Assembly (NCBI GenBank): GCA_018389105.1
Contig: JACATO010000317.1
Span: 4,831,501-4,895,500, forward strand
DNA: 64,000 nucleotides
Direction: 5' to 3'
Source: Nautilus pompilius
Taxonomy: Eukaryota > Mollusca > Cephalopoda > Nautilida > Nautilidae
Below, piece by piece: positions 19,228-63,573 of the stretch. A model generated the notes under the pieces. That model saw only the letters and a program-made list of their open reading frames with translations. It searched no databases and was not told the origin of the DNA. Position 1 is the first letter of the stretch; each line of letters starts with the position of its first letter. The position numbers were made by a program, and so were the translations under genes.

Positions 19228-20243
19228 CTATTTACTCAGAACAATCGGCTTAGTCGATGTCCTGGGTCGGTGACTCGTCGTCGGTCTTTGGAAAAGCATA
19301 GACAAGAATTCTTCTCTGATGAGCCGCCCGCTGAACAAGTAGAGGAAAAAGTTGATAGCTTTACCTGTGTACATAAGCATGAATACCGTTGCAGAGACAA
19401 CCATCAACTTGTATTTGAACAAAACTCCTTGGCGAATCAAGTAAACATTGTTGTAAATAAAGACGTACAAACGGATGGGAGTTGTAGTCAGAAGGAAAAC
19501 TGCATTCAACGTGATGATCAGTTTCACATTAACGGTGCTTCGCTTTGATTTGTCTTGGATGGTATTTTGGCCCTCAGTCAGGTTTTTCGTTGCATATTTT
19601 AGCTTCCAAAGAATGGCCAAGTTAGCACTCAGTATGATAGTGAAAGGGAAGAATGCAGAGATAAAAATGTCTACCCACGGCCACTCGTCAGTCATGAATG
19701 CCTGATAATTAGGTTCTTTGATAATACTGCAGAAATACGTCGTGGTATTACCGTCATTTATTCCAGACCTAAATCCGTATAAAGAGTGGCTGTAGATGCC
19801 CATCATGATAACCAATGGACCGAGCAGTTTGAGCAGAGTGGAGCGTTTGGTACTTAATTGAGATGAAATGGGGAAATAAATGGACAAGAGTCTATCACAT
19901 GTGATCACGACTAAAACCCAGCTTGAATAAGTACCTGTAGTAAGTTGGATCCAGGTGAATAATGGGCATCCGACTCTGCCTTCATCCAGATAAACTTTGT
20001 ATATTACACCCAAAAAGTTATTCAGGAGGCCGGTGTAGAGGTGAACCGTGTCACTGAGAGCGAGAGCGATCAGAAAGTTAGCAATGTGGAGTCGCCTCAT
20101 GTTCTTACGGCACATCACCAATACTGTCAATGTATTACCGATTCCGCCAACCATTAGATAGCCGACCCTATGTATTTTATAATGTTTGACGAAATTTCAC
20201 TCAGTATTACCGCTGTATGAAACTCAGATGGTGTAAGATCCAT
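19228..20243 (-). pseudogene. Class A GPCR 1, frame break in TM1
   Basis: Rhodopsin-like seven-transmembrane receptor with no introns; ligand unknown. The likely start is the ATG at 20,243 (MDLTPSEF...), followed by 29 codons and a stop. One base appears to be missing near 20,155-20,158, after which the frame continues to 19,228 as a 308-codon stretch beginning in TM1. Visible landmarks: GGIGN in TM1, LALSD in TM2, VITCDRLLSI at the TM3 end (arginine kept, Tyr replaced by Leu), a KNLTEG-containing third loop also present in the receptor at 60.4 kb, LLTTTP in TM6, and NFFLYL in TM7. It lies 0.44 kb downstream of a second receptor on the same strand, so the two are probably tandem duplicates. 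The break may be decay or a one-base sequence error; everything after it is intact. Confidence 0.85.
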
Positions 20244-20679
20244 TTCCTCCTCAATTTGCTTGCAATATCTTTCTAAAGTAAATGAATATCGCTGTTTCAA
20301 AGCTCAAAAAGGAACAAATGAATTATCAGTTAAAAGAATTTGTTTCTCTTCTCGACGAATGGATGAAAAGGCTCTTCCCAAATTACTATAGCTGACTCTT
20401 CAGAGTGCCGGCGTAAGACTGAGAGTCGCTTTCATCCACACGGGTATGAATAGCTAGCAGCTCTGCCTCGTGATTGGATAATCCTGCGTCAGCGTTGATG
20501 GTTGGTCGAATTACATCGGTCGATAGGTTAGAAATTTTAACCAGAAGCATTTCCAATTCGTTTAAAAGCTAATTAAACAACGGCGTTAAATACTAAATGG
20601 CTACAGTTTGTTAAGCAATCTACGTAAGAAAATATTAACCGGAACATCAGACGGATTTTACGTGACTCGGGGTTGACTA

Positions 20680-32067: not shown

Positions 32068-33105
32068 ATGGAGGTATCTGCCAGCCTTGATACGGTTCAG
32101 TGGCCAAGTTCGCGATTCTATTGATAATCCGGGAGCACACGAGACGACTTCGCATCACCATCTTTCTGATAGCTCCCGTCATCAGCTACACGGTGTTCGT
32201 GATTTCATTTCAAATATTTACAGAGAAAGCCGAGATCACTTGTAAGTCGTTCTAGATGCTAGCAATAACTCTCCATGTTTTTTAGTGATCACAGACAAAT
32301 TCTTGTCTGTTTACTACCATACTTTTCCACAAGGCGAATCTAAGCTGCCCAATGCACTGAAACTGAGGGTTCTTTCGATTATCTTAATGGCTATGAACGG
32401 TCACCACACGCACGTACAAGGTACTTTATCCTATTGATTGTAACAAAGGAACAAATTAATACGAGCTTTATCGGATCCTGACGATACATTTTAAATATAC
32501 ATTATTTGGTCGTGAAATGGCACTATCGTATCTTTTTTTCCTCCTATTTATCTGGATTTCTAACGAGGCCATTGTTTTAAAACTAGAAAATGGCCTAAAG
32601 AATCTGATAGGCGGACAAAAGATAACTAAGCGGAAAACCATCGATGAAATGTGGGCGAAAATATTGTTGTAACAATAGCAAACAGGTGATAATAAAATAA
32701 TTAGAAAATGCTTTAAGATTTTAATTTATAAGATCAGCGACATGGCTAATAGCGTCCACCGCGATATATTGTGTAGATTCGAACTGTTCTGTTTCTTTCG
32801 ACTCTCTCCAGCAACAACTCGCTATAAATTTCACATGTACAGATTAATGTCACGTTTGTTCCTACTCACCATGATGCCAATCTGTATATACGTCTTTGCT
32901 TACACCTATTTAGACGTCAACTTCTACATAAACCTTTGAAATACTGCACTGCACAGGTAACGGGCGCAGTCTCCTACACGCTGACGTTCGCAACTCCCCG
33001 GTTTTAGCCAGTGGCAGACTTATTAGGAAAGAGTTCGTGTCTGTGCTTGGTGAGCAACCTGTAGATCAACGCCGGCTGAGTGTTCCCTGTCATGCTCTGT
33101 TTTAA
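32068..33105 (+). pseudogene. Decayed class A GPCR lacking TM1
   Basis: Fragments in different frames align in order with the receptor at 60.4 kb. They are: TRRLRITIFLIAPVIS (TM2, about 32,136-32,185); EKAEITCKS (TM3 start, about 32,225); VITDKFLSVYYHTF (TM3 end, arginine replaced by Lys); SKLPNALKLRVLSIILMAMNGHH (TM4, about 32,338-32,405); SNEAIVLKLENGLKNLIGGQ (TM5 end and third loop, about 32,560-32,620); RLFLLTMMPICIYVF (TM6, about 32,850-32,900); and SGRLIRKEFVSVL (after TM7, about 33,010-33,050). A stop follows at 33,103. A candidate start (MEVSASLDTVQW) is followed by a stop, and the TM1 region is absent. Multiple frameshifts make this a true pseudogene, unlike the lightly damaged copies elsewhere. 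Confidence 0.85.
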
Positions 33106-37565: not shown

Positions 37566-37944
37566 TGAGAGCTGTTTTACCTGGCGTGTCTGTGTCTTGT
37601 GTCATATTCCAAAGAACTCTTATTCCCAGGTGTGATACAACTCCAAGGACTTTTGTACCTGCAGTGTTTATATGATTGATTGATTTTTCCATTTTCATAT
37701 CCACGATAGTCATCGAAACTGACAGCCTTTGTTCTCAACTCTGGTACAACTGCCATTCCGCTCTCCTTCCCTGTATTTATTTTCTACTTTACCTCGCGCT
37801 TTCTGATAAGATCGATAGGCAGACAACAGCAGACTTACGGCCGCGTTGTCAATCATTAGCAATGGTTTACTTACCTAGACTGTCACCTCTGCTAAAGTAT
37901 AGTTCTCTGCCCCGTCGCTGGTGGCGCTTCTTCTTTGTCCACTT
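37566..37944 (+). repeat. Left arm of a 0.37-kb inverted repeat (loop ~1.26 kb)
   Basis: Pairs with 39,203-39,568 in reverse complement. The arms share long identical blocks, for example CGTCGCTGGTGGCGCTTCTT and GATAGTCATCGAAACTGACA. Scattered substitutions and small indels separate them, so they are more diverged than the 60-kb-loop repeat arms. Confidence 0.92.
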
Positions 37945-38200
37945 GGAGAAAAAGAAAAGAATTTAAATCAACCTCCTTTTAAAGTTTTAACATTAAATTC
38001 ATTTCAATAAAGTGAAATTATGCAAAAATTAATCAACAAATAAATGAACGTTAACATCTTTATCTTATCTGAACAGTAAAGCGTAGAGTTCTATCAAAAT
38101 AGGATCACGAGTGATGAGCAATAAACTTAAAATTAAGAGATTTCTCTTTTATAGAAGTTTTGTGTACAAATCGTTTTCATGTTGCATATGTAAGAACAAT

Positions 38201-38431: not shown

Positions 38432-39202
38432 AAAAGACAAGTTGGCACAAAACGACAAGTGGTGACAGGGGGGGGGGGTAAGAGATAAAAGGAAGGAATA
38501 AGAACAAGGTAAAAGATGTAGGGAATAAAGCTAAATTGTGATAGTGGAAGAAGGACCAAAAAACTGAAGCAGCAAAATAGAAGTGGGAGAGATAGAGAGT
38601 AAGAGATGGGATGGGATGCAGAGAGACGGTAGAAGAGGAAATTGTGGGGAGAATGGGGGGAGAGCGGGAAAGAAAGTGGACTTGAGAAAAGGAAAAAAAG
38701 GAGGAAAGGCACATGAAAAAAATGTGTGCAGGTGTCAGAGAATCAGAGAAAGGAGAGGAGAGATTATGCGCAAAACATCTGAATAGTTTTGGAGGCTCTA
38801 TTATTGTAGTCAGAAGCGAAAGAAATAGAAAATAACTTATATTTCGGAGTAAAATGTAAGTTTATTTCCCGCACGCGATGACTGACAAGATTTAGAAATA
38901 TATGAAGACAGTAACCAGAAGCCCTTTACCTACAGACTGTCACAAGCGCGTCAGGGTTAATTCTTCTACAAGCCGTCACGCTCACGAAACAAACGGCCCA
39001 TCTTCAATGCATTACTCAGATACTGCTGCTTCTTTCGTGAGCTATTCATTTATTTCTACTTCTTACACACCTGTAATTACTTTGACTACGCTATTAGTTT
39101 TGCACACCTTTAAAGATTTTATTTGATTTACTTATCTGAGGTTTGAAGGATATTTTTTGTTGTTCTGGTAACGTGCTTCTTTTCTCTTCTTTCTATCAGT
39201 CG

Positions 39203-39568
39203 AGTAGACAAAGAAGAAGCGCCACCAGCGACGGGGCAGAGAACTATACTTTAGCAGAGGTGACAGTCTAGGTAAGTAAACCATCGCTATTGATTGACAA
39301 CGCGGCCGTAAGTCTGCCTATCGATCTTATCAGAAAGCGCGAGGTAAAGTAGAAAATAAATACAGGGAAGGAGAGCGGAATGGCAGTTGTACCAGACTTG
39401 AGAACAAAGGCTGTCAGTTTCGATGACTATCGTGGATATGAAAATGGAAAAATCAATCAATCATATAAACACTGCCGGTACAAAAGTCCTTGGAGTTGTA
39501 TCACACCTGGGAATAAGTTCTTTGGAATATGACACAAGACACAGACACGCTAGGTAAAACAGCTCTCA
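39203..39568 (-). repeat. Right arm of the 0.37-kb inverted repeat
   Basis: Reverse complement of 37,566-37,944; see that entry. Confidence 0.92.
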
Positions 39569-41976: not shown

Positions 41977-44974
41977 ATACTGGTAAAAAATAGAACAGAC
42001 ATCTTAATTTCAGGACGGGACTTTTTTCGCGATGGTGACGTATCATGACATCTCACACCTAACGCGGAGTAACTGTAGAAACTAGAAAAAAGAAGAGCAT
42101 CGGCGTCCGTCTCGACTGCAGGATCATGAAAGCACAAAATGACTAAAATCTCCTTAGAAGTGGCGCGTCTCTGGTTTCCTGTAGCTACGATGCCCTTTCT
42201 GCTTCTTTACTCGCGAAAAAGATTCTCACATTATAGAAATGTCGAACCCTCACCTAGAAAAAAAAAAAAAAAAAACACAAACCACAGCAGTCTTGCCACC
42301 TCCGGCTGCTGGCTCGGTTTACAGGTAATGGGAGGGTGAGCGAGTCTAGTCCAATTGAATCGCGCCTAAGGCTCTCTCGACCTTCAACCCACTTCCTTTC
42401 CTTCTTTCGTAGCCTCAGTCCGATGGGCGGAGACTTAACTCTAGACGCATGCGCAGAGATTGTTAGAAGCAAAGTAATCCGGGGACTATTGTCCTAAATG
42501 CATGAAAATCAATACTAGTGTCACATGACTTGATCAGCCAGCTAGTGAAGTGAATCGGTGCATCGTTCAGCCGCTTGAATAAAAGATCAGTCAGAGTATC
42601 AATAAATACATTATAAGATAGCTTGTAGGCCCCGTTAACCTGTTGATATCTGAAACACTTCTGTAGCAAAAACTTGACTTTATTTATTATAATTCATTAA
42701 AATGTCACGGGAAACTAGTCAGTTCCATTTTGGGAAAACATCCTCTTATAGCGACAGGTCTTTACGGCCTCGATGGTCGCTTGATCGGCGTCTAGGCTTC
42801 CTACATCATCCCAGTCTCCGCCTATTCTGTTTTTTTTTTTTTTTTTTTTGTCCCACTTCTAATTTAGTAGGTATCTTTCACCAGAGCAGCCGGAGGCATG
42901 GAGCCACTTCTGCCCGACTCGGGCGTCACGTTACAAACTCCCTTTTCCTGACCAGATGGCGATTTAGGTCCAGAAACAGCTCAACGGATTGATGGCGAGC
43001 GGGCAGCCATGGCAAGCAGACATGGCCTGCTGCTCGCGACGACACATAAGTAGAAAATTTTTTTTTTTTAATTTAAAAAAAAAAACCTTTTAAATGCATT
43101 TGGCTGCTGTTTATTTGATCTTCTCAAACTAATTGCGGACGGTGAGCAGAGGAAGAGACAGAGCCCAGCCTGCCCACTGAAACTTCTGCGTTCGCCAGCA
43201 GCTACGAGCACCAGAGGATTGGCGGATGCAAGGCCAAATGGGACTCTGTAAAAAAAAAAAAAAGTACGTTAAATTCCTACAGGATTTTGATTAAAAATCA
43301 ACGCAAGATGTGTTACATGCGGATCATCTTCTTTTCTTGCCTAACAGAGGTGCTTCTAAGTATTAAAGTTCCAGCCATGAGTAAGAATGAGAGAGAGAAA
43401 GGAAAGACGTTATCAAGGCTCTGCACTGAGACCGATAACGTTACCATTTTCCGGTCTCCCATCCACTCCAGAATGCTGATCCACAAGATAAATTTTAACA
43501 TTTCGCACCAGAAACAACCGCTATGTGAGCTGTATCGAAGTACAGGATTCCCGAGAATCGTTTCACCTTTTTGTTTTAAACTTTAATGTTGGAAAGCAAA
43601 TAAAAAGAATGAAATGGCTACTCATTCGAAATTCATAATATAACTAAACAAAGGGATCATCATTTCCGCTGTCCATACACCAAGATATTCTTATTCTTTA
43701 CAGTGATATGGCAGGCAAGTTTACAAATCGTGAATTCCTTTGTCTTTTATTTCACCGGACAGCAGAGGGGCAAGGGTTAAGATGTATCTAGTTATAGAGG
43801 ACGAAATAAATGTGCTAAGGCTCCAGATAGTGCGAGTCGACATAATCCGGTTGTTACTGTGATATTTATGGGGATACATCAGCCCATTAGTGAGACTCGG
43901 CTTAGAGATCCGCTATAGAGCATCTCAGCACATGAACACAAAAGGTAAAACCGGTATATCAGGAAAAACAAAGGATCAGAATTTTTCCACGATGTGCCAG
44001 CCATGCTTTGTTCATTTGTGTTGAGACAGAATCGATTCCAAGCGTCGCATTTAAAGTCAAATAGATTTTTAAAAAGGGTGACACCGATTAAACGTTTTTT
44101 TTTCATTTTAGAATGATAGATTCATCTGCTTGGTGACTGCTAGTTAGAAGGGACACTTTGTGTTTTTCTCTAGAAATACATTAATGACCATTTCTTAAAA
44201 TTGCTAACTGATATTCGAGAAGGTTTTGGCTGATTTGGAGGGCATTTCCAATGGCAGCATCCGCGGCTCAAACGCAGTATTATGAGGAATCTGCATTTAT
44301 TCCCAATCAGGTACGTAGACTCCATTCTGCATTAATACGGTTATGTTTGTAGTACAAATAAATATCGTTTATAATTTTAGATAGGTTATTAGAAAACTAG
44401 CTTCTTAATACCACAAAGATTTCTCTTCCAGACTACCATCATACTGGACGTATGGACGTGTAGTGACATAATCATGAAGAATATGGGCATCAGATCTTTG
44501 TAGCCAAGTCGGTAGTGAATGGCTTAGAACAATAATATTTGACAAAATCCACAATAAATGTATCTGTCATTGACCTGTGACAACTCCGGGTGGCCTATAA
44601 CAGGTAACTGATAGATATCGCGGAATTCGCCTATGTTCGACTCGGCTATACTACCTAACCACAGACGTATAATACATGCATCTCCACAAGTGAAATCTAC
44701 GAATTTTTTATTCTTTCACCGGAAAGTTTTTATTCACCTTCAGTACTTTGTGGTTTATTGAATATCCTAACCTGATATTAGAATTATAAACATTTCAATA
44801 TGGTAAAAGACAATTCATGCAAATTTTCATAAAAATTTCATTGTCAACTTACAAAATAAGCTGCTGTCGCAGGTGTATTATAGAACAAATCTATTAATGG
44901 GAGAATTAATAGAATAAGTTAGTAAATTTGTTTTGGTTTATTATTTTTTTCCAGTCAATGTTGTTGTTGTTGTC
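41976..44974. other. Intergenic, no gene recognised
   Basis: Contains poly-A and poly-T runs (42,258; 42,830; 43,055-43,085; 43,250). A 99-codon plus frame at 43,287-43,586 begins with a hydrophobic segment (MRIIFFSCLTEVLLSI), but I see no family and no support for expression. Confidence 0.35.
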
Positions 44975-46138
44975 AATCTACTGCTGGAGGCATTTTTAAA
45001 ATTGAAACAAAAAATAAAACAACGGATCACGACAGAGATGAATCGCCTGCTGTTGACGTTAATTCGGTTGATGTGTTGTTGTTGGAATAAGAAATTGAAT
45101 AAATCAGTCATCCACATTTAATGAACTCCGTCTGTTGTTGGTCGCCTTTAGTTTCCGAAGATGGCGGGTAGGGAGGCAGACTCTCTGCTCATCTCCTCTA
45201 TCTAGATTCGGTGGCACCGTTTTTGTTTTAGAAAGTCATTCTTCCAGCCTGGACACTGCACTAAAACGTACGGGACGAGTCCGGAACCCCGCCACGGATT
45301 ATTCCACACCGAGAGATTTCCAGGAATCGTGTATATGGGAATTTCTAAAAGTAAGCAACCGAAAACGAGCCGCGTGCAAGCTGAAGCAGGTCAGGTTTTC
45401 TCGTCTGTCGATAGACACAGCGCCCCTTCCACTGAAGAGTGAAACGGTTACCGTCGGGACAGGTAATTATGGTCACCCGGCTGACGCTGACGCTGATTTG
45501 ATCGTATTATCTGCCTGGTCCAGGGATTTAAGCTGATGCGGGTAGACCTCGTTCTGGCATCATAGCCACATAAGCCCCCAAACCTCTTGTGTCATGTAAC
45601 CCTGACCAGTGGCCAGAGCATCTCATTATTCAGGGCCACGCGGCAAAACAAGCGAAATATGTTAAGTAGGTAATTCCAGGTTTCTTATTGAAATACGGTA
45701 CGTAAGGAAATACACCCTTTCCCTGCCAGAAATATATAGGTTGTTTGTTGTTTTTTTAAAAATTACACAACTTAGAGCCAGAAATAGTGAAAATTCGATC
45801 GTTTGAAGGAACAGGAAAATGAAGTAAACAACTTTTTTCAGAATCCCCTCTATACATTCAGGTTTAAAATATTCTTGTTTAGGAAAGATATAAAAGTTCC
45901 GAAATCGTTGTCTTAAAAAATAAAGGATAAAAAACAGGGAGCGCGATCTCGTCTGAATAGCGGCCCAAACTAAAGTTTTTCACTCGAAAAAGACTAATAA
46001 GAAATTACTCATCATCTTCAAGTTTAGATTATCTTAAATTCTTGTTGTTTATTTAATTCAGTTTTATTCGTAAAACTCTTAGTAGGCGAGCCTAACTGCC
46101 AGCTTCCTGACATTTCTCTGTTAGCAGTCCTGCCCCTG

Positions 46139-46696
46139 GGGACGAAGAACGGCTCTCTCGCCGCCTCCTTACAGACAGACAGCCAAACGAGTCCCGCCAA
46201 GAATAGATATTTTATTCGGCATCAACAGAGGTGGACGAAGAACGGCTCTCTCGCCGCCTCCTTACAGACAGACAACCAAACGAGTCCCGCCAAGAATAGA
46301 TATTTTATTCGGCATCAACAGAGGTGGACGAAGAACGGCTCTCTCGCCGCCTCCTTACAGACAGACAGCCAAACGAGTCCCGCTCAGAATAGATATTTTA
46401 TTCGGCATCAACAGAGGTGGACGAAGAACGGCTCTCTCGCCTCCCTCCTTACAGACAGACAACCAAACGAGTCCCGCCAAGAATAGATATTTTATTCGGC
46501 ATCAACAGAGGTGGACGAAGAACGGCTCTCTCGCCGCCTCCTTACAGACAGGACAGCCAAACGAGTCCCGCCAAGAATAGCTATTTTATTCGGCATCAAC
46601 AGAGGTGGCGAAAAACGGCTCTCTCGCCGCCTCCTTACAGACAGCCAGCCAAACGAGTCCGCTCAGAATAGATATTTTATTCGGCATCAACAGAGA
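46139..46696 (+). repeat. 93-bp minisatellite, 6 copies (left arm)
   Basis: The unit is about 93 bp and includes CGAAGAACGGCTCTCTCGCC, CCAAACGAGTCCCGC and GAATAGATATTTTATTCGGC. Copies start near 46,142, 46,235, 46,329, 46,421, 46,514 and 46,606. Open frames across it reflect the unit length (a multiple of three) and break when the unit varies. Confidence 0.95.
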
Positions 46697-48340
46697 TGGT
46701 GCACGTTTTGTATTGTGCTAACCGACGATTGTTTACTGCAGACAGCGAGGTGCGATCTGGCTAAGCAGAAACGTGTACATATCGATTTGTTAATGGTATT
46801 TAAGCTCAGATAAACATTGCCACACTTTGTTACATAGACGGCCAGGCTAACAAGTCAAAAGAACAACGGACATGTTAACCGGTGTCGTCGGCAGAGAAGC
46901 AACTCCAGCCGGACGGACCGTAACACGTGCTAACAATAAAAGGGACACGTGCAGTTTCTTCTGCGCCCGGATATCAGAGTGGAGCGAACTTCCGCAGTTA
47001 TATCAAAACACAAACAGGACCTAAGATGATCGGGAAGGGAGTAGTAGTAGTATAGTGGAATCAGTGTAAGCGACTTGACCGACTGGAGGATATAAACTTA
47101 GTGTTCATTTGCACTGGTTACCAAAACTCTTCGATAAAGTCAAGGAGTTTTGCGAAAAAAAACCATTCAAAATACAAAACTAAAGTAATTAATTGATTTT
47201 CTTTAATCACCCATAATCCGGGTGCCAACTGGTGTATAACAGAAGGCAGGAATCTTTTAGCTTTAAAGGTCATCGCCCTCCCCCCCCCAAAAATCAGATC
47301 AGGTCCACAAATCTCTTAACTTAAGAAAACGTTACATTTTGCAATCCTGTTAATGTTTTCAAACACCAACAAACCCTACTTTCTAAACCGACAAAATATC
47401 ATTATCGAGTGCACGGGGGATCTTCAATCGTCGCGTGGTCCTCAGAGAGAAGCGATTCCGACAGTTTCTTGAAGAGACATTTTTGGCCGTCCCCTCGTCT
47501 GTAAGAGATTTTATATCCATCACTGAACTCGCTTCCTTCCTAAAAATAGGTTGTCGGACAGTGGATTCTTGATGTGATGCGCTCTAAACCTTCCTTCAAT
47601 TCCGCGAACCACAAGATACAGTTAACAGTAGGTCTGAGGAGGAAACTGTAAGTGCGCGACTTTCCGATACATTGTTATTATTCTCTCCCTTAGCTACATT
47701 GCCGTCAAACTTTGAGATCCCTAAAAAATTCACCTTGTATAGCTACAGCGACGTCATCGTTACTCTCCACCTAAAGGGTGTTGCAATAGTCGGGATCAAT
47801 TTCAAATCTGAGGTCAGCAGAATGTCTTCGTTCTTCATGCCAAGGCACCAGATATAGGTGGATCTCAGGAAGACCGTTTCCAAAATGCAAATGCCCAGGC
47901 ACCTTGTCCTAGCATAAGAAAAGTTACACCGATTTGAAAATGATGAAAAATTGACGACGAGTACTGCAAAAACGCCTATCTTTCAAGATGGTCTGAACAC
48001 TTTGGGAACTGCTTGTCTTTAAATGCTAGCGTTTTGCTCAATTCGTGAGTTAGAAGATTCTTGAAATTTCTATTTTTCTTTTTTCGTTACATCTAATTCC
48101 CTTGGTGAAGGACGAACACAATCGGCTGGAGCTAATGTCGTCGGATTGCTTGCCGTCTCGGTTTGTTATTATCAGAAGAAAGCGTCTTCCGGCTTTCACC
48201 TTTTAGCCTGCTGACGGCTCTGTTTCAAAGCCTGTATGCGTAGAGTAATTGCCGGATTCTCAAACCAGATATTACAAACTAAGGAGTAATCTACCCTCCC
48301 AGCAGGTATAGTTAGGAAATTAAGGCCCGGAAATATTTAT

Positions 48341-49289
48341 TTACTTTCTTTTTAGAGTGAAACTGCATCAAAGTAGCAAAGGAATTCTTTTCTGAAAATT
48401 GGAGCGAGGATCAGGTACACGAAAAAGTTAATAGAAAAACCAATGTACATGAAAGTGCGCAAAACATCTCTCGCAATGATCCTGTTAAGGTAGCTTATGC
48501 TATTTTCGTTATAAGAGGGTTTACTCATATAAATGGAAAGAAATTTGTAGGCAGTTATTGGTGACTCATAACGAGGAATGCGACGTTTAGCGTGACGATC
48601 AGTTTTACGTTTTCCATCGTTTCGGCTTCGGCCATATTTGTCGTCCCTGTTTTCCTTTTACAAAAAATGACCGCCGTGGCGATCATCAAGACAAGGATGG
48701 GAACAAAGGAGAAGGCAAAAAAGTCGATCACGGGCAGCAGCTGAAGTACATACATCGCATAAGTTTCTTTCTTCACAATGGTACAACGCCACTCCGTCGT
48801 GTTCTTGCTGTTGACAAAGGAAGTTACCTCGTAGCCGAAGAGCCAGTGGATGTGGTAGACGACGGTTAAGAGCAGGAGGACAAACAGCGTCACTGCAGGA
48901 GACCTTCTTGACCGGGAATTCAACAGAGAAGGAAACACAATAGACAGGAGTCTGTTCATCGTGATGAACACCAGCAGCCAGGAAAAATGGCTTTTTGAAA
49001 CGTTCAAACACCATCTTAATGCCTTACAAGTGAATGTTGTTGTGTCTGTCCATATTGCAAACATTCCTAGTAAATTTGTCAGGAGGTCGGCGTAAAGATA
49101 AACCGTCTCACTGATGGCCAGAGGTATCAAGTAGATGGCTACCCGATGTCGCTTCATCTTCGTTCGGCTCATCACCAGGACGATAAGAAGGTTACCCACC
49201 GTGCCAACTGTGAGAATCACCGGTGCTAAATACTTCCACAAATATGATATGATATTAAACCTTAGCATCACCGCTTCGTATAGGCTCAT
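48341..49289 (-). pseudogene. Class A GPCR 3, left copy (frame broken in TM6)
   Basis: Intronless receptor starting at ATG 49,289 (MSLYEAVMLR). It is open for 244 codons to 48,555 and then broken by a missing base in an AA pair at about 48,566. Homology with the other copy continues to a stop at 48,341, with two further one-base insertions near 48,403 and 48,362. Landmarks: GNLL in TM1, LAISE in TM2 (Glu61 where most receptors have Asp), Cys88 at TM3, MNRL at 111-114 (DRY Asp replaced by Asn, Arg kept), NTT glycosylation site before the loop Cys, and Pro in TM5. Each inverted copy is damaged in different places, which fits consensus error over a functional gene or independent decay. Confidence 0.88.
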
Positions 49290-51310
49290 CGCGTCTTTTG
49301 TACGGCTGATTCACTTCGTGCTGTCTGAATTTCTTATCGTGTGAACTCTGAAAGATGTATAAATAAATGAACAACCAGGTAAATTATCTCGCAAAAGTAC
49401 AAACATTCACTCGGTTTCTTACCCGTAGAAGACGGACAGCAAATTCTGTGTCTGAAGGATTTCACCTTCTCAGCCTATTTTGTTGCGCATTCACAGCAGC
49501 GAAACGTCATTGGCTGAACTAGCGACGGCCGTCTATGTGCTCACTCTTGAGATAGCTCGGCGCCAATTTGATAATTCTTCATGCTGTCGCCGCTCTTCTT
49601 ACAAGTTTCGTTCAGAGATCTGTAGATGTTTGCATGCGAATGGGTTTTTAACTAAAGGTAGCAGCGGTCCTACTTCCGGGTAGTTCAGCCAGAGCCCGGA
49701 CTATGGAACGAACGTCCAGGTGACCGCCAGAATGGGCCACACGCACAGGCCTTAGTATTCTTCCATATTCAACCCTTTACACGACGGATTGGGCGGAAAC
49801 TGTCTCTAATGCTAACAGCAGATTCTCTGCAGGACTTCACTCGCACCTTTTTATAATCATAGCTTCCCCGAAACCGTGTTGTAGACAGCTTTCAGTGACA
49901 AAACGGGGTAGATTTTAATGGTTCATTGAACATCTATCTTCTATTTTTTAATATAGATGAATAGAATCGTCACCAACTGGCCAAAGTTAAATGCGAACTA
50001 TATTTCGTTAAGGAATGCTTTAAAGGTCTTGAAGTAACGTGCACACACACAGAAAGATGGCTTTTCGGTTAACCCTCTTATTGCCTGTTTATTGCATTGG
50101 TTGGTTGTCCGTTACTCCGCAGAAATAAAGGTCTAGAGATTTCTTCATAAGGACAGAAAACAGATTTACCTGTGTATAGCATTCGAATCTGTTTCCAACA
50201 CCAATCATATCTTTGCTTTAGATATTGGATTTCAATGACGCCATGCATCTTTGTATTGTTTCCGATCACGCGCGCCCAGAAGCGCCCCTATTCACGGGTA
50301 TAAAGAGTCAGTGAAGCGAGACGTTTGGAACATGTCGCTGTAAAAGTCACACAGTAAATCTTTCATCCGTGAGCAAAAAGTAAAAACGGGACCACTCCCA
50401 AATCTAGTTGCTTTTGTTTATGTTTATGTTTATCTGTACTAATCGCTTTTTTGAAAAAAAAAAAAAAAGCAAAATAGAAAAGATTATTAAAATTTTGTAG
50501 TACAACTTTTATTTAATACTGAGATGTTTTATAGCCGATCTCTAATCTCTGCATACAGGAGGAGTACGTCACAGACTGAGCCTCATTTTACCTCTTGATG
50601 CGGCTTTCTATTGTCACCGTTAATGTCGTTGAGGCTGCGCTCACCTGAAAGTTAGCTTTGTCAAACTGTATGCCATCAAGCAAAGATGTCGCCTTTAGCA
50701 GATATTTATTCAGCTTCGAAGTATTTTATTAGTAACCACAAAGCAAACAGAAATATACAATACCCTGCCATAATAATGCATTTTCTGTATTGTTACAATT
50801 ATCTTGGTTTGTTTCGGAACCGCCAACTAGAGACGAGAAAATAGAGTAAAATTCTTTGTTATACTTGGTCGAGCCACCTTTTGCAGCGCCAAGAACATCT
50901 GACTGTTTGGCATTCAATCAACGGGATTTTGGATCGTAGACTGTCCCAACTTTTCCTATATCTGTGAGAGGATATCACATCGGGGAAACAAGCATGGGTT
51001 TTCTCATTGACAATCGGGTGTTCTCAAAGTTGTTCGAGTAGATTCATACCAGGGCTCTGTGGTGCCATTTTGTTGTTGTACTGCGGTACTCATTTCGGTT
51101 CCTCATCATGCAAGGCTAAAACATTTAGCGATCCACTTACAGCTGTTTTTTTTTTTAATTAAATGATTTATTTCTTCTTATTATTATTATTGTTGTTGTT
51201 GTTATTGTCAATATTGTTGCTTAAAATACCTATAATTAATAAAGAAAGGATAACTAGCTGGAGTGTTGGCCCCTTTTCTACCGCGCATAATCATTATTAT
51301 ACATTGATAA
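49077..51310 (+). repeat. Receptor 3 upstream region, duplicated inverted at 56,957-59,193
   Basis: From TCAGGAGGTCGGCG inside the receptor (about codon 72) through 2 kb of 5' flank to CATTATTATACATTGATAA at 51,310, the sequence recurs in reverse complement at 56,957-59,193, with few differences. No gene was recognised in the flank; only short frames occur. It presumably carries the promoter of receptor 3, since it is the part the chimeric receptor at 58,979 shares. Confidence 0.93.
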
Positions 51311-51965
51311 CAGCAGGAAGACCGTCCAAGGTGAGCTAAATCTCTGCAGCCTCGATTCTCTATGGTCCAATTACATCGCTGTCGTTGCTCCGGATTCGTG
51401 ATGTTGGTTGCCTGGGAAATACTTTGCGGCCTCTTCCCGATCTCGATTTATTTGAACAATCACCTTTTTTTTTATGAAATCCAGATTTTACTTCCTTTAA
51501 TATTTCTGATATAAATCTCTCGTATTCGTTCTGGACATTTTCGAATACCGTCAGGTGACATAGTAGTAAAATAGCGCAGAATTTGGTTATTAATTATACG
51601 AAAGCTAGAGACGACAGCCGGCGTCCGTGCCACACACGTGATCCTGGTTTAACTGTCAGTGTTGTTTTGAGAAACCCTGGTTCGGTTTTTATTGAAGTTT
51701 TCATATGGACAATAACTGTTACCGACACTTTACATAAATTCGAGTTGATCTGTCCATTTTCAACATTTATACATATGCACAGAAAACGTGGGAATCAACA
51801 AAAATTGTAGGTAATATTTTACTGCAATAATTACACAATATTACAAAGGGCAAAACAGAAAACCAACAGCAGACTGCGGACACACTGCCTACACTATCTG
51901 TCTACCAGCAAAAACAAAATAGTTTTCATATTTATTCTAAACATTATTTATTTACTTATTTATTT
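51311..51965. other. Unique spacer between inverted copies
   Basis: Not shared with the other arms. Contains a short frame at 51,583-51,810 with no recognisable domain. Confidence 0.5.
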
Positions 51966-52006
51966 ATTCAGACAGCACGAAGTGAACCAGCCGTACAAAA
52001 GACGCG

Positions 52007-52951
52007 ATGAGCCCATACGAAGCGGGTGATGCTAAGGTTTAATATCAATATCATATTTTGTGGAAGTATATTAGCACCGGTGATTCTCACAGTTGGCACG
52101 GTGGGTAACCCTTATCGTCCTGGTGATGAGCCGAACGAAGATGAAGCGACATCGGGTAGCCTCTACTTGATACCTCTGGCCATCAGTGAGACGGTTTATC
52201 TTTACGCCGACCTCTGACAAATTTACTAGGAATGTTTGCAATATGGACAGACACAACAACATTCACTTGTAAGGCATTAAGATGGTGTTTGAACGTTTCA
52301 AAAAGCCATTTTTCCTGGCTGCTGGTGTTCATCACGATGAACAGACTCCTGTCTATTGTGTTTCCTTCTCTGTTGAATTCCCGGTCAAGGTCTCCTGCAG
52401 TGACGCTGTTTGTCCTCCTGCTCTTAACCGTCGTCTACCACATCCACTGGCTCTTCGGCTACGAGGTAACTTCCTTTGTCAACAGCAAGAACACGACGGA
52501 GTGGCGTTGTACCATTGTGAAGAAAAAAACTTATGCGATGTATGTACTTCAGCTGCTGCCCATGATCGACTTTTTTGCCTTCTCCTTTGTTCCCATCCTT
52601 GTCTTGATGATCGCCACGGCGGTCATTTTTTGTAAAAGGAAAACAGGGACGACAAATATGGCCGAAGCCGAAACGATGGAAAACGTAAAATTGATCGTCA
52701 CGCTAAACGTCGCATTCCTCGTTATGAAGTCACCAATAACTGCCTACAAATTTCTTTCCATTTATATGAGTAAACCCTCTTATAACGAAAATAGCATAAG
52801 CTACCTTAACAGGATCATTGCGAGAGATGTTTTGCGCACTTTCATGTACATTGGTTGTTCTATTAACTTTTTCGTGTACCTGATCCTCGCTCCAATTTTC
52901 AGAAAAGAATTCCTTGCTACTTTGATGCAGTTCACTCTAAAAAGAAAGTAA
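52007..52951 (+). pseudogene. Class A GPCR 3, right copy (frame broken in TM1-TM2)
   Basis: Second copy of the receptor at 48,341-49,289, in head-to-head orientation. The ATG at 52,007 is followed within five codons by the first of several small indels (GCGGGTG for GCGGTG, extra bases near 52,040-52,070, AACCCTT for AACCTTCTT at about 52,110, TAGCCTCT for TAGCCATCT at about 52,160, CCTCTGAC for CCTCCTGAC at about 52,215). From 52,232 the frame is open to the stop at 52,949-52,951, giving TM3 to the C-terminus: MNRL at the TM3 end, Pro in TM5, NFFVYL in TM7 and a basic tail. An AATAAA follows at 52,952, two bases into the 3' side. It lacks one codon present in the left copy. Confidence 0.88.
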
Positions 52952-54560
52952 ATAAATATTTCCGGGCCTTAATTTCCTAACTATACCTGCTGGGAGGGTA
53001 GATTACTCCTTAGTTTGTAAATATCTGGTTTGAGAAATCCGGCAATTACTCTACGCCATACAGGCTTTGAAACAGAGCCGTCAGCAGGCTAAAAGGTGAA
53101 AGCCGGAAGACGCTTTCTTCTGATAATAAACAACCGAGACGGCAAGCAATCCGACGACATTAGCTCCAGCCGATTGTGTTCGTCCTTCACCAAGGGAATT
53201 AGATGTAACGAAAAAAGAAAAATAGAAATTTCAAGAATCTTCTAACTCACGAATTGAGCAAAAGCTAGCATTTAAAGACAAGCAGTTCCCAAAGTGTTCA
53301 GGCCATCTTGAAAAGATAGGCGTTTTTGCAGTACTCGTCGTCAATTTTTCATCATTTTCAAGGTGTAACTTTTCTTATGCTAGGACAAGGTGCCTGGGCA
53401 TTTGCATTTTGGAAACGGTCTTCCTGAGATCCACCTATATCTGGTGCCTTGGCATGAAGAACGAAGACATTCTGCCGACCTCAGATTTGAAATTGATCCC
53501 GACTATTGCAGCACCCTTTAGGTGGAGAGTAACGATGACTTCGCTGTAGCTATACAAGGTGAACTTTTTTAGGGATCTCAAAGTTTGACGGCAATGTAGC
53601 TAAGGGAGAGAATAAATAACAATGTATCGGAAAGTCGCGCGCTTACAGTTTCCTCAGACCTACTGTTAACTGTATCTTGTGGTTCGCGGAATTGAAGGAA
53701 GGTTTAGAGCGCATCACATCAAGAATCCACTGTCCGACACCTATTTTAGGAAGGAAGCGAGTTCAGTGATGGATATAAAATCTCTTACAGACGAGGGGAC
53801 GGCCCAGAAATGTCTCTTCAAGAAACTGTCGGAATCGCTTCTCTCTGAGGACCACGCGACGATTGAAGATCCCCCGTGCACTCGATAATGATATTTTGTC
53901 GGTTTAGAAAGTAGGTTTGTTGGTGTTTGAAACATTAACAGGATTGCAAATGTAACGTTTTCTTAAGTTAAGAGATTTGTGGACCTGATCTGATTTTTGG
54001 GCGAGTGAACCTTTAAAGCTAAAAGATTCCTGCCTTCTGTTATACACCAGTTGCACCCGGATTATGGTGATTAAAGAAAACCAATTAATTACTTAGTTTG
54101 TATTTGAATGGTTTTTTCGCAAAACTCCTTGACTTTATCGAAGAGTTTTGGTAACCAGTGCAAATGAACACTAAGTTTATATCCTCCAGTCGGTCAAGTC
54201 GCTACACTGATTCCACTATACTACTACTCCCTTCCCGATCATCTTAGGTCTTGTTTGTGTTGATATAACTGCGGAAGTTCGCTCCACTCTGATATCCGGG
54301 CGCAGAAGAAACTGCACGTGTCCCTTTTATTGTTAGCACGTGTACGGTCCGTCCGGCTGGAGTTGCTTCTCTGCCGACGACACCGGTTAACATGTCCGTT
54401 GTCTTTGACTTGTTAGCCTGTCCGTCTATGTAACAAAGTGTGGCAATGTTTATCTGCTTAAATACCATTAACAAATCGGATATGTACACGTTCTGCTTAG
54501 CCGGATCGCACCTCGCTGTCTGCAGTAAACAATCGTCGGTTAGCACAATACAAAACGTGC

Positions 54561-55030
54561 ACCATCTCTGTTGATGCCGAATAAAATATCTATTCTGGGC
54601 GGGACTCGTTTGGCTGTCTGTCTGTAAGGAGGCGGCGAGAGAGCCGTTCTTCGTCCACCTCTGTTGATGCCGAATAAAATATCTATTCTTGGCGGCACTC
54701 GTTTGGCTGTCTGTCTGTAAGGAGGCGGCGAGAGAGCCGTTCTTCGTCCACCTCTGTTGATGCCGAATAAAATATCTATTCTGAGCGGCACTCGTTTGGC
54801 TGTCTGTCTGTAAGGAGGCGGCGAGAGAGCCGTTCTTCGTCCACCTCTGTTGATGCCGAATAAAATATCTATTCTGGGCGGGACTCGTTTGGTTGTCTGT
54901 CTGTAAGGAGGCGGCGAGAGAGCCGTTCTTCGTCCACCTCTGTTGATGCCGAATAAAATATCTATTCTGAGCGGGACTCGTTTGGTTGTCTGTCTGTAAG
55001 GAGGCGGCGAGAGAGCCGTTCTTCGTCCCC
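54561..55030 (-). repeat. 93-bp minisatellite, 5 copies (right arm)
   Basis: Reverse complement of the array at 46,139-46,696, with five complete copies instead of six (GAGCCGTTCTTCGTCC near 54,641, 54,734, 54,828, 54,921 and 55,013). Confidence 0.95.
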
Positions 55031-56196
55031 AGGGGCAGGACTGCTAACAGAGAAATGTCAGGAAGCTGGCAGTTAGGCTCACCTACTAAGAGTTTTACGA
55101 ATAAAACTGAATTAAATAAACAACAAGAATTTAAGATAATCTAAACTTGAAGATGATGAGATATTTCTTATTAGTCTTTTTCGAGTGAAAACTTTAGTTT
55201 GGGCCGCTATTCAGACGAGATCGCGCTCCCTGTTTTATCCTTTATTTTTTAAGACAACGATTTCGGAACTTTTATCTTTCCTAAACAAGAATATTTTAAA
55301 CCTGAATGTATAGCGGGGATCTGAAAAAAGTTGTTTACTTCATTTTCCTGTTCCTTCAAACGATCGAATTTTCACTGTTTCTGGCTCTAAGTTGTGTAAT
55401 TAAAAAAAAAAAAAACAACAAACAACCTATATATTTCTGGCAGGGAAAGGGTGTATTTCCTTACGTACCGTATTTCAATAAGAGACCTAGAATTACCTAC
55501 TTAACATATTTCGCTTGTTTTGCCGCGTGGCCCTGAATAATGAGATGCTCTGGCCACTGGTCAGGGTTACATGACACAAGAGGTTTGGGGGCTTATGTGG
55601 CTATGATGCCAGAACGAGGTCTACCCGCATCAGCTTAAATCCCTGGACAAGGCAGATAATACGATCAAATCAGCGTCAGCGTCAGCCGGGTGACCATAAT
55701 TACCTGTCCCGACGGTAACCGTTTCACTCTTCAGTGGAAGGGGCGCTGTATCTATCGACAGACGAGAAAACCTGACCTGCTTCAGCTTGCACGCGGCTCG
55801 TTTTCGGTTGCTTACTTTTAGAAATTCCCATATACACGATTCCTGGAAATCTCTCGGTGTGGAATAATCCGTGGCGGGGTTCCGGACTCGTCCCGTACGT
55901 TTTAGTGCAGTGTCCAGGCTGGAAGAATGACTTTCTAAAACAAAAACGGTGCCACCGAATCTAGGATAGAGGAGATGAGCAGAGAGTCTGCCTCCCTACC
56001 CGCCATCTTCGGAAACTAAAGGCGACCAACAACAGACGGAGTTCATTAAATGTGGATGACTGATTTATTCAATTTCTTATTCCAACAACAACACATCAAC
56101 CGAATTAACGTCAACACCAGGCGATTCATCTCTGTCGTGATCCGTTGTTTTATTTTTTGTTTCAATCTTAAAAATGCCTCCAGCAGTAGATTAAAA

Positions 56197-56956
56197 ATAT
56201 TAATTTTGTTTTTTACAACCTCCGTTGTAATCGAAATTAACTCGTAATGGTTTGAAAGTAATTTCAACTTTGTAGTCGAAAGGAAGATATTAGATTTGTG
56301 GACAAATGGTTTATACAAAATCATTGCCAAACAAAACATCAACAGATATTTTAACGATGGCCTTAAACAAAGCGCAGAATTAAATCCAAAGAAATAAACT
56401 TACGTGAATAAATTATGGGAAGAATTCCGAACATCACTGTACAAAGCTGCTGTCAGTGTTTTCAATGTAATGCTGTCGATTGGTTAAACGAGACGGACAG
56501 CGAACCAGACGTTGAAAGCTTCGTTATGTCCAGAGATCTAAAATACTTAAGTAAATAATCATGCATCCTCTGTTCAAGTTTAAAATCCGAAAACTTCTGT
56601 TAGATTCTAAAATTGTAGAACCTTTATTGAAGTTCAAAATCCTGGAACATTTGCTCAAGTTTAAAGTTTTTAAATGAAATCTTGAAAATCTGCAAATCAT
56701 AAAATATTTGTAAGGTTAAAAATATTAAAACATGTACAAGCAGTTAACGTTCGCAGTAGGACGGTAGAAGTGGTTTGCCACGAAAGACCCAGTAAATTGC
56801 AATTACACAAACTTGCTACTTGTTTATGCGATTGCATATAAAGTAAAAGAAATCTACAAAGAGCCACTGCTGTTCAATGAATAAACGACCGAGGAATGTT
56901 GTACCGGTTCAACTTGGCGCATTTCTAACTCCCTTTGACTGAGTTTGATGACCTAT
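56197..56956. other. Unique segment between the two right-hand duplicated blocks
   Basis: AT-rich. Weakly repeated motif CAAGTTTAAAATCC / GAAGTTCAAAATCC between 56,570 and 56,690. No gene. Confidence 0.45.
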
Positions 56957-59193
56957 TATCAATGTATAATAATGATTATGCATGGTAGAAAAGGGGCCAA
57001 CACTCCAGCTAGTTATCCTTTCTTTATTAATTATAGGTATTTCAAGCAACAATATTGACAACAACAACAACAACAACAAGAAGAATAAGAAATAAATCAT
57101 TTAATTTAAAAAAAAAAACAGCTGTAAGTGGATCGCTAAATGTTTTAGCCTTGCATGATGAGGACTCGAAATGAGTACCGCAGTACAACAACAACAATGG
57201 CACCACAGAGCCCTGGTATGAATCTACTCGAACAACTTTGAGAACACCCGGATTGTCAATGAGAAAACCCATGCTTGTTTCCCCGATGTGATATCACTCT
57301 CACAGATATAGGAAATGTTGGGGCAGTCTACGATCCAAAATCCCGTTGATTGAATGCCAAACAGGTCAGATGTTCTTGGTGCCGCAAAAGGTGGCTCGAC
57401 CAAGTAATAACAAAGAATTTTACTCTATTTCTCGTCTCTAGTTGGCGGTTTCCGAAACAAACCAAGATATTGTAACAATACAGAAATGCATTATTATGGC
57501 AGGGTATTGTATATTTCTGTTTGCTTGTGGTTACTAATAAAATACTTCGAAGCTGAATAAATATCTGCTAAAGGCGACATCTTTTGCTTGATGGCATACA
57601 GTTTGACAAAGCTAACTTTCAGGTGAGCGCAGCCTCAACGACATTAACGGTGATAATTAGAAAGCCGCATCAAGAGGTAAAATGAGGCTCAGTCTCTGAC
57701 GTACTCCTCCTGTATGCAGAGATTAGAGATCGGCTATAAAACATCTCAGTATTAACATAAAAGTTGTACTACAAGAATTTTATAATCTTTTCTATTTTGC
57801 TTTTTTTTTTTTTTTCAAAAAGCGATTAGTACAGATAAACATAAACATAAACAAAGCAACTAGATTTGGGGAGTGTCCCCGTTTTACTTTTTGCTCACGG
57901 ATGAAAGATTTAACTGTGTGACTTTTACAGCGACATGTTCCAAACGTCTCGCTTCACTGACTCTTTATACCCGTGAATAGGGGCGCTTCTGGGCGCGCGT
58001 GATCGGAACAATACAAAGATGCATGGCGTCATTGAATCCAATATCTAAAGCAAAGATATGATTGGTGTTGGAAACAGATTCGAATGCTATACACAGGTAA
58101 ATCTGTTTTCTGTCCTTATAAAGAAATCTCTAGACCTTTATTTCTGCGGAGTAACGGACAATCAACCAATGCAATAAACAGGCAATAAGAGGGTTAACCG
58201 AAAAGCCATCTTTCTGTGTGTGTGCACGTTACTTCAAGACCTTTAAAGCATTTCTTGACGAAATATAGTTCGCATTTAACTTTGGCCAGTTGGTGACGAT
58301 TCTATTCATCTATATTAAAAAATAGAAGATAGATGTTCAATGAACCATTAAAATCTACCCCGTTATTGTCACTGAAAGCTGTCTACACGGTTTTCGGGAG
58401 AGCTATGATATAAAAAAGGTGCGAGTGAAGTCCTGCAGAGAATCTGCTGTTAGCATTAGAGACAGTTTCCGCCCAATCCGTCGTTAAAGGGTTGAATATG
58501 GAAGAATACTAAGGCCTGTGCGTGTGGCCCATTCTGGCGGTCACCTGGACGTTCGTTCCATAGTCCGGGCTCTGGCTGAACTACCCGGAAGTAGGACCGC
58601 TGCTACCTTTAGTTAAAAACCCATTCGCATGCAAACATCTACAGATCTCTGAACGAAACTTGTTAAGAAGGCGGCGACAGCATGAAGAATTATCAAATTG
58701 GCGCCGAGCTATCTCAAGAGTGAGCAGCCATAGACGGCCGTCGCTAGTTCCAGCCAATGACGTTTCGCTGCTGTGAATGCGCAACATAAATAGGCTGAGA
58801 AGGTGAAATCCTTCAGACACAGAATTTGCCGTCCGTCTTCTACGGGTAAGAAACGCGAGTGAATGTTTGTACTTTTGCGATAATTTACCTGGTTGTTCAT
58901 TTATTTATACATCTTATCAGAGTTCACACGATAAGAAATTCAGACAGCACGAAGTGAATCAGCCGTACAAAAGACGCGATGAGCCTATACGAAGCGGTGA
59001 TGCTAAGATATAATATCATATCATATTTGTGGAAGTATTTAGCACCGGTGATTCTCACAGTTGGCACGGTGGGTAACCTTCTTATCGTCCTGGTGATGAG
59101 CCGAACGAAGATGAAGCGACATCGGGTAGCCATCTACTTGATACCTCTGGCCATCAGTGAGACGGTTTATCTTTACGCCGACCTCCTGACAAA
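56957..59193 (-). repeat. Inverted copy of the receptor 3 upstream region and first ~72 codons
   Basis: Reverse complement of 49,077-51,310. It ends inside the coding sequence at about 59,193, after GACCTCCTGACAAA, where the downstream sequence switches to a different receptor. Confidence 0.93.
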
Positions 59194-59940
59194 CACGCTG
59201 CTAGTATTCAATATTTTTTTAAACCGAACGAAGATAACCTGTAAGTTATATATGTGGAGCATTTGCATTTCCAAGAGTTACTTTTGCTGGCTTCCAACCA
59301 TCATCTCACTTGAAGAAATATTTAATGTTTTTTCTGTTCCACCCTGACGAAATGCGCATCAAAGAGGTTCCCTGCTCTCAAGGTAATTGCGCCCCTGGCT
59401 CTCATTGTTGCTTTCCACAGTCATTTTCTCTACGGAAGCAGTCTGAATTTCTACGTCGATAGCCGTAACTTCACTCACTGGTCGTGCGGATTTGTACCCA
59501 ATGAAGCCTACCAGAATTTCCTGCTGAATTCCTGGACCTTCATTGATTCGTGCATCTCCTCCTTTCTCCCCTTCTTCATCCTGCTGATCGCTAGTGGCGT
59601 TATCTTTTGGAAAAGGAAAATATTCAATGCAAAAGGGAACATGGCGAATGCAAGACTGTTTATTACACTGAATGTTGCGTTCTTCCTCACTAAGATGCCC
59701 GTTCGCTTTTTCTTAATTAACTACAAAGGTGAAAAGATTTCGTACCAACGAGATCCTCTCGGTTTCTACAACGAAAAATTGATTTCCACTGCCTTGTACA
59801 TGCTGGTATACTTAGGTTGTTCTATCAACTTTATCCTTTACCTGATCAGCACTCCGCTGATCAGAAAGGAATTTTTTTGTATTTTTTCTAAAACCAAATA
59901 TAATCAGCGTTCAATCGCATCATCAGCAGTGTCTAACTAA
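58979..59940 (+). pseudogene. Chimeric class A GPCR (N-terminus from receptor 3), one frame break
   Basis: Codons 1-72 (MSLYEAVMLR to DLLTN, covering TM1 and TM2 with LAISE) are the same as receptor 3 apart from one residue (Tyr11 for Phe). From codon 73 the sequence is a distinct receptor body: FLNRTKITCKL before and at TM3, SLEEIF at the TM3 end (DRY Asp-Arg replaced by Glu-Glu), FLYG after TM4, NFT glycosylation site, LPFFILL in TM5, LTKMP in TM6 and NFILYL in TM7, ending at 59,938-59,940. The frame breaks at a run of six T (about 59,327-59,333), giving a stop at 59,345; the next frame is then open to the end. A one-base correction in that run would join the halves, so it may be a consensus error. 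The 2-kb upstream region is also that of receptor 3. Confidence 0.87.
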
Positions 59941-61371: not shown

Positions 61372-62054
61372 CGACGACGCACGTTTTCTCTTTTCCCAGA
61401 TTCTGCACGTGTTGTTTAAATGTGAATATTAAAAAGAACATTTCCTTTACCCCGGTCAGAATCTCACCTGTGAGGTTGTTGTGTTCCTTGATGCGGACCA
61501 CACTTTCACGAAGGTATTTTCACATCCTTACTGCTCACCGGGACGGTGTAACTAAAGCATCGTCGCTTACCGCTGTCTGTTTGGGAGTAAATTTGCCAAC
61601 TCTTTAAGAAAACGAACAATAACCACGTTCGGTATTTTGTGAATTTCAGTTCCAAATCTGTGTTTTTTAAAATATAAATATCATGAACCGTCAGGTTCTC
61701 ATAGATTACGATTTCCAGAATGTTGTGTTATTATTCCTCACGTGTGTATTTCAACAGCACGATAACAAAAGTAACTCAAAGAATATGCAATTAGCGAGTG
61801 TCTTATTAAAATTTTCGTGATGCTTATTATGCAAAGCACAATTAACGATTATGTATACTGTACTTGAATAAAATGCTAATTGTGAACGAAATGGTCCATG
61901 CGCATTTTTATTAAATCGTTATCAATGGAAGCAGAGGAATACTTGGAGCTCAAGTAACCGTAACCCAGAATATGGACCAGATCAACAACGGGGTGAAGTC
62001 AGGGTTACGTGTAAAACAAAAAATATATCCTGAAAACGGAATGGACGTAACTTT
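61372..62054. other. 3' flank of receptor 4, no other gene seen
   Basis: AT-rich with short frames only. Confidence 0.4.
61867..61872 (+). terminator. Candidate polyadenylation signal for receptor 4
   Basis: AATAAA about 0.5 kb after the stop codon of the receptor ending at 61,371. A plausible 3' end, but the motif is common in AT-rich DNA. Confidence 0.3.
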
Positions 62055-62927
62055 TATAGTCTGAGATTCCATAGAGAACCCCATGCTCAAGACAGGAATC
62101 CAGTCAGAATCCTTTATCTTATTTTTACAATGATAATTATATTAAACTTGGATCAGTAGGACGATAGCAACTTTTACTTGGTTGAAGATAAAAGGAAAGA
62201 GAATCTGTAACCATAAACAGAACGCATCTTAATCTAAAGATAACGCGGAGAAGCTGGTCAAAACATTCTCGACAGAAGTCGGCTGAAATCACGCGGAAGT
62301 AGCCGCTTGACCTTTCACCTAGGTGTCATCTCTGGATATGTGATACTAAACCGCACCGCGAGCTGCTACTTTCAGAGACGTTGCTCGCTCACCGGTTTAA
62401 ACGTATAAATCGACTTCCTCTACACGAATCCTCTCGGAAATATAGCAAAGTCTGGGAGGTGGTTTACAGATCGGACGTTTAGACAGTTCCCAAATGGTTG
62501 GTTCACTTCCTCCACAAGGATGCTAGAGCTGCATCCCTACAAACGTGTCATGGCAACAGCTCTAACAATCTAGTACAGTACCCGGTAGAAATACTGTAAT
62601 ATCCTTTAAGCTGCTGCAACATCTAATGACATCCTATGTGCAAGTGACCCTCGCCAGGAGGATAGTTAGTTTGCCCGTGTTTTGCTGGAGATATTAGCTT
62701 TGTTTGCCAATTAGGGATTATTAGGGGTACGAGTAAGCAGATAAGTAGCAGTCAGAACCGTTTATAGAGAACCAGACCGTTTTGGCTGTCAGACTGGCGC
62801 TCTGATAGACCGGATGTAGCGCTGAGTATCGGTCAGCGAAACGGTCGGCCATTGACGCAATTACTGCGGAGATCAGGGACAAACAGAATGTGCAAATTAG
62901 AAGTCGATTACTAAAGCGAAAAATTGA
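62055..62927 (-). repeat. Right arm of the 0.87-kb inverted repeat
   Basis: Reverse complement of 459-1333; see that entry. The boundary inside the loop is near TTTATAGTCTGAGATTCC and the outer boundary near CGAAAAATTG. Confidence 0.9.
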
Positions 62928-63573
62928 AAAACCCACTAAACCCCTACTATTTTGAGTTTTAAAACCAATTACGCTATTTCTTTTTACAACTTCCGCAAGT
63001 ATTTAAGAATAGAAATTACCATTAAAAATGGTCATATTTGAAAATGTCATCTATTAACTACGAGTGATAGCGCAAGTTATGTAAAGTGCATCCAGCCGAT
63101 GAGAGCCATTTAAACCAAAGCAACTCGGGTTGGCGAATAACGTTTAAAGGGGACAGATGTTAAAGCGTCGGTTTATGAATTTGAAAATAAAGTAAAACTA
63201 ATTAACAGGGAAATTTACAAAACTCTGTATCATAACTACCACTACTAATAACTGCAATAAAAATTATTATAACAATAACAAAAATCTTTAATATGTCTAG
63301 AAATAAGCCATTGTCTCTCATTGTTGTAAGGTGACGTTCAAAAGATGCAGAAGAATTTTATTTTCACGTTGCTGCTAGAAAACGATTAATTAGACCAATG
63401 GACAAAGCTAAAATGCTAGAATGGGCTACAGTTCTATAAGTAGGATAATCTCTATCTGAGCTGCTCCTAGGTATATGTTCAGCGACGAAGTTGTTCAAAG
63501 AAAAGTACGTAACTATGAAGCAAAGTGTGAAGGAAAGGCTGTGTTCCGGAGTTTTTTTGCATTGTAGACAGAA
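62928..63573. other. No gene seen
   Basis: AT-rich, with nothing recognised. Confidence 0.4.

Follow-up and report, generated by a model that had tools for sequence, protein, structure and literature searches.

A chimeric receptor locus with a broken reading frame in Nautilus pompilius, probably formed by local duplication and exchange between paralogues

Hybrid L/M opsin genes of primates are produced by unequal exchange, in which the body of one paralogue acquires the 5' end of another together with its upstream region; the parent genes are very similar and lie as tandem direct repeats, and the consequence of the hybrids for expression is known. Human OR8U1 is described as a fusion of OR8U8 and OR8U9 by NAHR, with a 119 bp identical exchange tract shared by the parents and with both alleles reported in people (PMC2570968). 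The candidate chemoreceptors of Aplysia are described as rhodopsin-type GPCRs that are chiefly single-exon and clustered, with pseudogenes among them (PMC2700072). False duplications arising from haplotypes and read errors are reported to be common in assemblies (PMC9516828).

We analysed a chimeric receptor locus, part of a cluster of smell-receptor-like genes, in a stretch of 64,000 nucleotides of N. pompilius (the window, lying within a 5.5 Mb contig of a 727.6 Mb assembly). As in the opsin hybrids, one paralogue contributes the body and another the 5' end with its upstream region, but the nautilus partners are not very similar tandem direct repeats. The locus also resembles OR8U1 in that neighbouring paralogues have been joined into a chimeric receptor gene in register, in frame and at a homologous position. 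However, only one of the two parents is present (receptor 3; the body has no near copy), protein identity between the partners is about 37%, and the locus has an inverted block and a broken frame. The likeness to the Aplysia genes extends to rhodopsin-type, chiefly single-exon, clustered receptors with pseudogenes present, but the Aplysia signature FERCLCIA (two subfamilies) was not seen in the window receptors (VDRLLSI in R6), and kinship was compared at the level of class A only. With the false duplications the locus shares near-identical neighbouring copies with error-type differences (except in the outer match between copies A and B), whereas no gap lies between the copies in the window (0 N). 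When the literature was searched for chemoreceptor chimeras that involve an exchange of promoters, the only match concerned sea urchin immune genes. A chimera made by exchange is a plausible reading, and one ordinary in kind, a receptor fusion by exchange of the OR8U1 type, with a real chance of being an artefact.

The features of the locus are as follows (A, the receptor 3 block; B, its inverted partial copy; C, the chimera copy).

44975..51313, minus strand: A, the full-length block, with 2 kb upstream (U), the 5' end (h), and the receptor 3 body and 3' flank (D); found by self-blastn
48555-49289, minus strand: receptor open reading frame in A, 244 aa, after which the frame breaks
51314..51965: S1, the 652 bp spacer between A and B
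51966..56192, plus strand: B, an inverted partial copy of A (h and D, no U), with its body frame open; found by self-blastn
56193..56952: S2, the 760 bp spacer between B and C
56953..58937, plus strand: the copy of U in C, receptor 3 upstream DNA lying before the chimera; found by self-blastn
58938..59193, plus strand: h, 256 bp common to A, B and C, with 41 bp before the ATG and codons 1-72 less one base
58979..59347, plus strand: stretch over which the chimeric frame stays open, 122 codons followed by TGA
59194..59940, plus strand: body of a different receptor (TM3-TM7), with 59344-59937 open in a second frame
59331..59343, plus strand: frameshift region just after the LEEI motif, in or near the T-run at about 59331, its exact place estimated

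The sequence-only reading had described identity with receptor 3 from about 2 kb upstream to about codon 72, stopping sharply at about 59193, and both self-blastn of the window and protein alignment agreed with this. The match between A and C pairs 56953-59193 with 51313-49075 at 96.8% over 2260 columns and ends abruptly at 59193. The shared block starts 2026 bp upstream of the chimera ATG at 58979 (the ATG of receptor 3 is at 49289, minus strand), and its last base is the second of codon 72 (59192-59194), which is AAC in the chimera and AAT in A, a silent difference that leaves Asn in both; the sequence at the join is GACCTCCTGACAAATTTACTAGG in A and GACCTCCTGACAAACACGCTGCT in C. Over codons 1-72 the chimera and receptor 3 proteins are identical at 71/72 positions, while from codon 73 onward the identity with A is 16/46 plus 45/116, or 61/162, counted only as far as the first frame of A extends, and that with the body of B is 16/46 plus 66/188. 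The change from 71/72 to 61/162 (Fisher p about 9e-22) is thus not due to chance. The receptors aligned without a gap on either side of the join, which is in frame and in exact register; random non-homologous ligation is thereby ruled out. The loop after TM2 was one residue shorter in receptor 3 and the chimera than in the other window receptors R1, R2 and R6.

Copy B, which the sequence-only reading had overlooked, begins inside the same 256 bp (h) where the receptor 3 part of the chimera ends, and its span of 51966-56192 corresponds to 49330-44975 of A. Written in segments, A is U-h-D, B is S1-h-D and C is U-h-body5 (body5 being the body of the chimera), and B and C jointly cover all of A in the circularly permuted order S1-h-D-S2-U-h-body5. 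A 93 bp tandem array is present in six copies in A (46140-46699) and five in B (54562-55028). An origin of B as a retrocopy was ruled out by its 3.2 kb of 3' flank, which includes this array, and a simple short-spacer foldback artefact by loops of 2.6 and 5.6 kb. Elsewhere in the window we observed an inverted repeat pair at 456-1333 and 62053-62931 (881 columns, 98.5%), possibly a mobile element, and a further local inverted duplication at 37566-37961 and 39182-39568 (93.7%).

In the assembly, U-h was found only at A and C, with h also at B, apart from an interspersed repeat, among the 40 of 347 first-look candidates that were scored; 37 of these 40 rows were the repeat, which lies inside U at about 57295-57516 of the window (query 343-564) and occurs at 70-84% identity in many contigs. 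For the initial 2.6 kb of B, the candidates (3 of 3 scored) lay at A and B and, through h, at C, and nowhere else. Thus, the search for a haplotig elsewhere in the assembly found no second contig with the U-h block or with this part of B. In the genome search S1 occurred at a single place, besides a weak match of 48 bp, and S2 at a single place; neither shows any receptor similarity, so that neither supplies the 5' end that the paralogue lacks. The DNA of the chimera body had a single near-identical place, its own, and one weak match to R6. A search of the whole assembly for a close relative of the body outside the chimera found none; the best other protein matches were at 36-41%, and the 5' half of the paralogue was not found. 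The 72-residue 5' end matched 113 places. The sample compared took in 34 loci and six genes of the window, out of a larger family; in it, 106 receptor pairs shared a block of at least 85% identity, and the longest block ended inside the coding region in six: four were blocks of 49-56 bp, and the two long ones were A-C and B-C. Long-block fusions were not a habit of this receptor family in the sample, and the layout was singular there.

By Pfam, R6 (57.5 bits), R1 (62.2), R2 (42.4) and A (36.8) scored above the curated 7tm_1 cutoff of 30.5 bits, and B (23.3) and the 122-aa frame of the chimera (17.4) scored under it; the best match of the latter was TAS2R at 18.6, under the TAS2R cutoff of 22.2. 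The pieces of the chimera body matched no Pfam family, in a test that is sensitive to the start chosen and so gives weak evidence; the body of B gave its 7tm_1 score (5e-5) if started at 52232 and nothing if started at 52190. By tblastn the chimera body matched R6 at 9e-34, and R2, R1 and receptor 3 similarly. In a tree of the bodies it grouped with that of receptor 3 (UFBoot 95, 5 taxa), so that the exchange partner is plausibly a sister paralogue. The frames of R2 and R6 are fully open, and R1 looks frame-broken, its first residues apparently being encoded in a different frame immediately before the open one (20150-20260, minus strand). The idea that window receptors without a near copy are all intact did not hold up against R1. 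A degraded receptor fragment at 32094-33075 (plus strand) matches R1 and R6 in three frames. Five other window open reading frames gave no Pfam matches, and Rfam and tRNA searches gave none.

The chimera had been taken as one open reading frame over 58979..59940, which does not hold: read from 58979, the frame runs for 122 codons, short of seven TMs, before it meets a TGA at 59345-59347, and the following 198 codons (59344-59937) read in another frame. The replacement of the DRY region by LEEI, also part of that account, was borne out by alignment of the receptors, in which this position reads CDRLL in R1, VDRLL in R6, VDGLL in R2, MNRLL in receptor 3 and LEEIF in the chimera. Receptor 3 itself has NRL rather than DRY, and R2 also lacks the Arg; in the chimera, Glu takes the place of the class A arginine at the end of TM3. 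Because of this Glu and the stop after TM3, the chimera as assembled would not make a working, signalling receptor. In its present form the locus is either a pseudogene or a gene with its frame masked by leftover sequencing error. Being out of frame, and lying in a duplicated block that is prone to error, the assembled copy has the look of an ordinary recombinant or a broken gene, not of a proven new receptor.

We favor a genuine fusion, at a probability of roughly 0.58. A block carrying receptor 3, a class A GPCR, would have undergone local segmental duplication, after which unequal homologous exchange, or a deletion-fusion, at a homologous codon with a neighbouring old paralogue would have joined the 5' flank and TM1-TM2 of receptor 3 to the TM3-TM7 of the paralogue. 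Going by the coordinates, inversion of 49331-51965 between the inverted repeats of A and B would restore a direct tandem order, U-h-D-S2-U-h-body5, such as a tandem duplication followed by fusion should leave. The sharp in-register junction, the duplication layout and the broken frame are features of the assembled sequence; from these we infer the order of events and that the exchange took place in the animal rather than in the assembler. Substitutions differed between A-C (46/2257) and A-B (44/3814; p 0.008), so B and C do not fit as pieces of one copy made at once.

The main and serious rival, which we consider somewhat unlikely, is misassembly or false duplication, in which noisy long reads of an inverted, possibly heterozygous duplication were assembled with the join at 59193 or 51966 made by the assembler inside h. 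The core A-B match had 30 substitutions and 38 indel events (26 of 1 bp; 24 homopolymer-type), A-C had 46 substitutions and 29 indel events, and the first 256 bp of B (h) differed from A by 7 frame-size indels and 2 substitutions, an indel excess with P 0.008 against an assumed one-third indel share. Among receptor pairs of at least 93% identity, gap bases per mismatch were 50/29, or 1.72, for the three window pairs versus 176/906, or 0.19, for 10 pairs of receptor duplicates, not all independent, that lie on other contigs; the value was 0.54 over 39 pairs from the C605 array and its kin, many of which are blocks containing only a few mismatches. The difference between 1.72 and 0.19 points to residual long-read sequencing error as the source of the small-indel excess in the window copies and in part of the C605 array. 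Errors of this kind are reported to persist in repeats of bacterial assemblies (PMC8812927). An indel-rich block makes its own assembly suspect and so counts against a genuine fusion. In addition, the receptors of A, B and C are all frame-broken, and the circular permutation of B and C over A, with h at both ends, has the shape of a threaded repeat. However, the C copy of h is clean and open, as is the sequence spanning 59193, a shared segment of 256 bp offers little length for a misjoin of long reads, the outer A-B match (14 substitutions, 6 indel events) is not indel-rich, and neither an N in the window nor a second contig with the block was found. Poor polishing of repeats is also not the sole cause of broken frames, which occur without a near copy in the chimera body (none in the assembly) and apparently at the 5' end of R1 (none in the window); among the sampled receptors, frames were broken in 11/23 with a near copy versus 2/11 without (p 0.14, not significant). 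Badly polished sequence could equally come from a real duplication. The C605 array itself (G000:C605, 439-530 kb) is a dense array of related receptors with about 16 places, many of them frame-broken, and with indel rates that are uneven between pairs.

The sequence-only reading had proposed exchange or conversion of the 5' end. Exchange between paralogues remains the best account of a sharp, in-frame, in-register junction, but conversion, with the 5' block of receptor 3 copied onto a receptor gene already at the place of the chimera, is less likely than duplication plus crossover because its left edge at 56953 lies in non-homologous, non-coding DNA. The right edge does fall within homologous coding sequence, as conversion would have it; however, a 2.2 kb tract whose outer 2 kb lack a homologous target is hard to convert and S2 has no match elsewhere, which together leave this origin very improbable. 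Also very improbable is the opposite polarity, in which the U-h-body5 gene is the original and A the recombinant (5' from C, body from B), since, even if recombination between any two of A, B and C could formally yield the third, the differences seen within h are all private to B or C, so that A sits between them, and h would have had to be near-identical in B and C beforehand.

If the fusion formed as we favor, the divergent body would lie behind the 5' flank of receptor 3. By eye and against consensus sequences, U holds what we take to be a TATA-like TATAAAAAAGG at 58409-58419; putative splice-type motifs are GTAAGA, donor-like, at 58846 and a CAG, acceptor-like, whose last base is 58920, and similar sequence is present in A. 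The body may have been taken over by the promoter of receptor 3. A short element around CTATAAAACATCTCAG is shared between 43902-43944 and 57723-57763 (81% over 43 columns).

In this assembly, the indel errors of some duplicated receptor blocks call for caution, as they can create false pseudogenes and perhaps false chimeras. If the fusion is real, exchange at a homologous codon can put a body under the 5' flank of a paralogue even when the receptors are only about 37% alike. It is doubtful that the join is real, that the frame break is a sequencing error and that the body with Glu-Glu at the DRY position is expressed from the promoter of receptor 3, all at once; if this were true, the locus would be a natural promoter-swap experiment in a chemoreceptor-like family.
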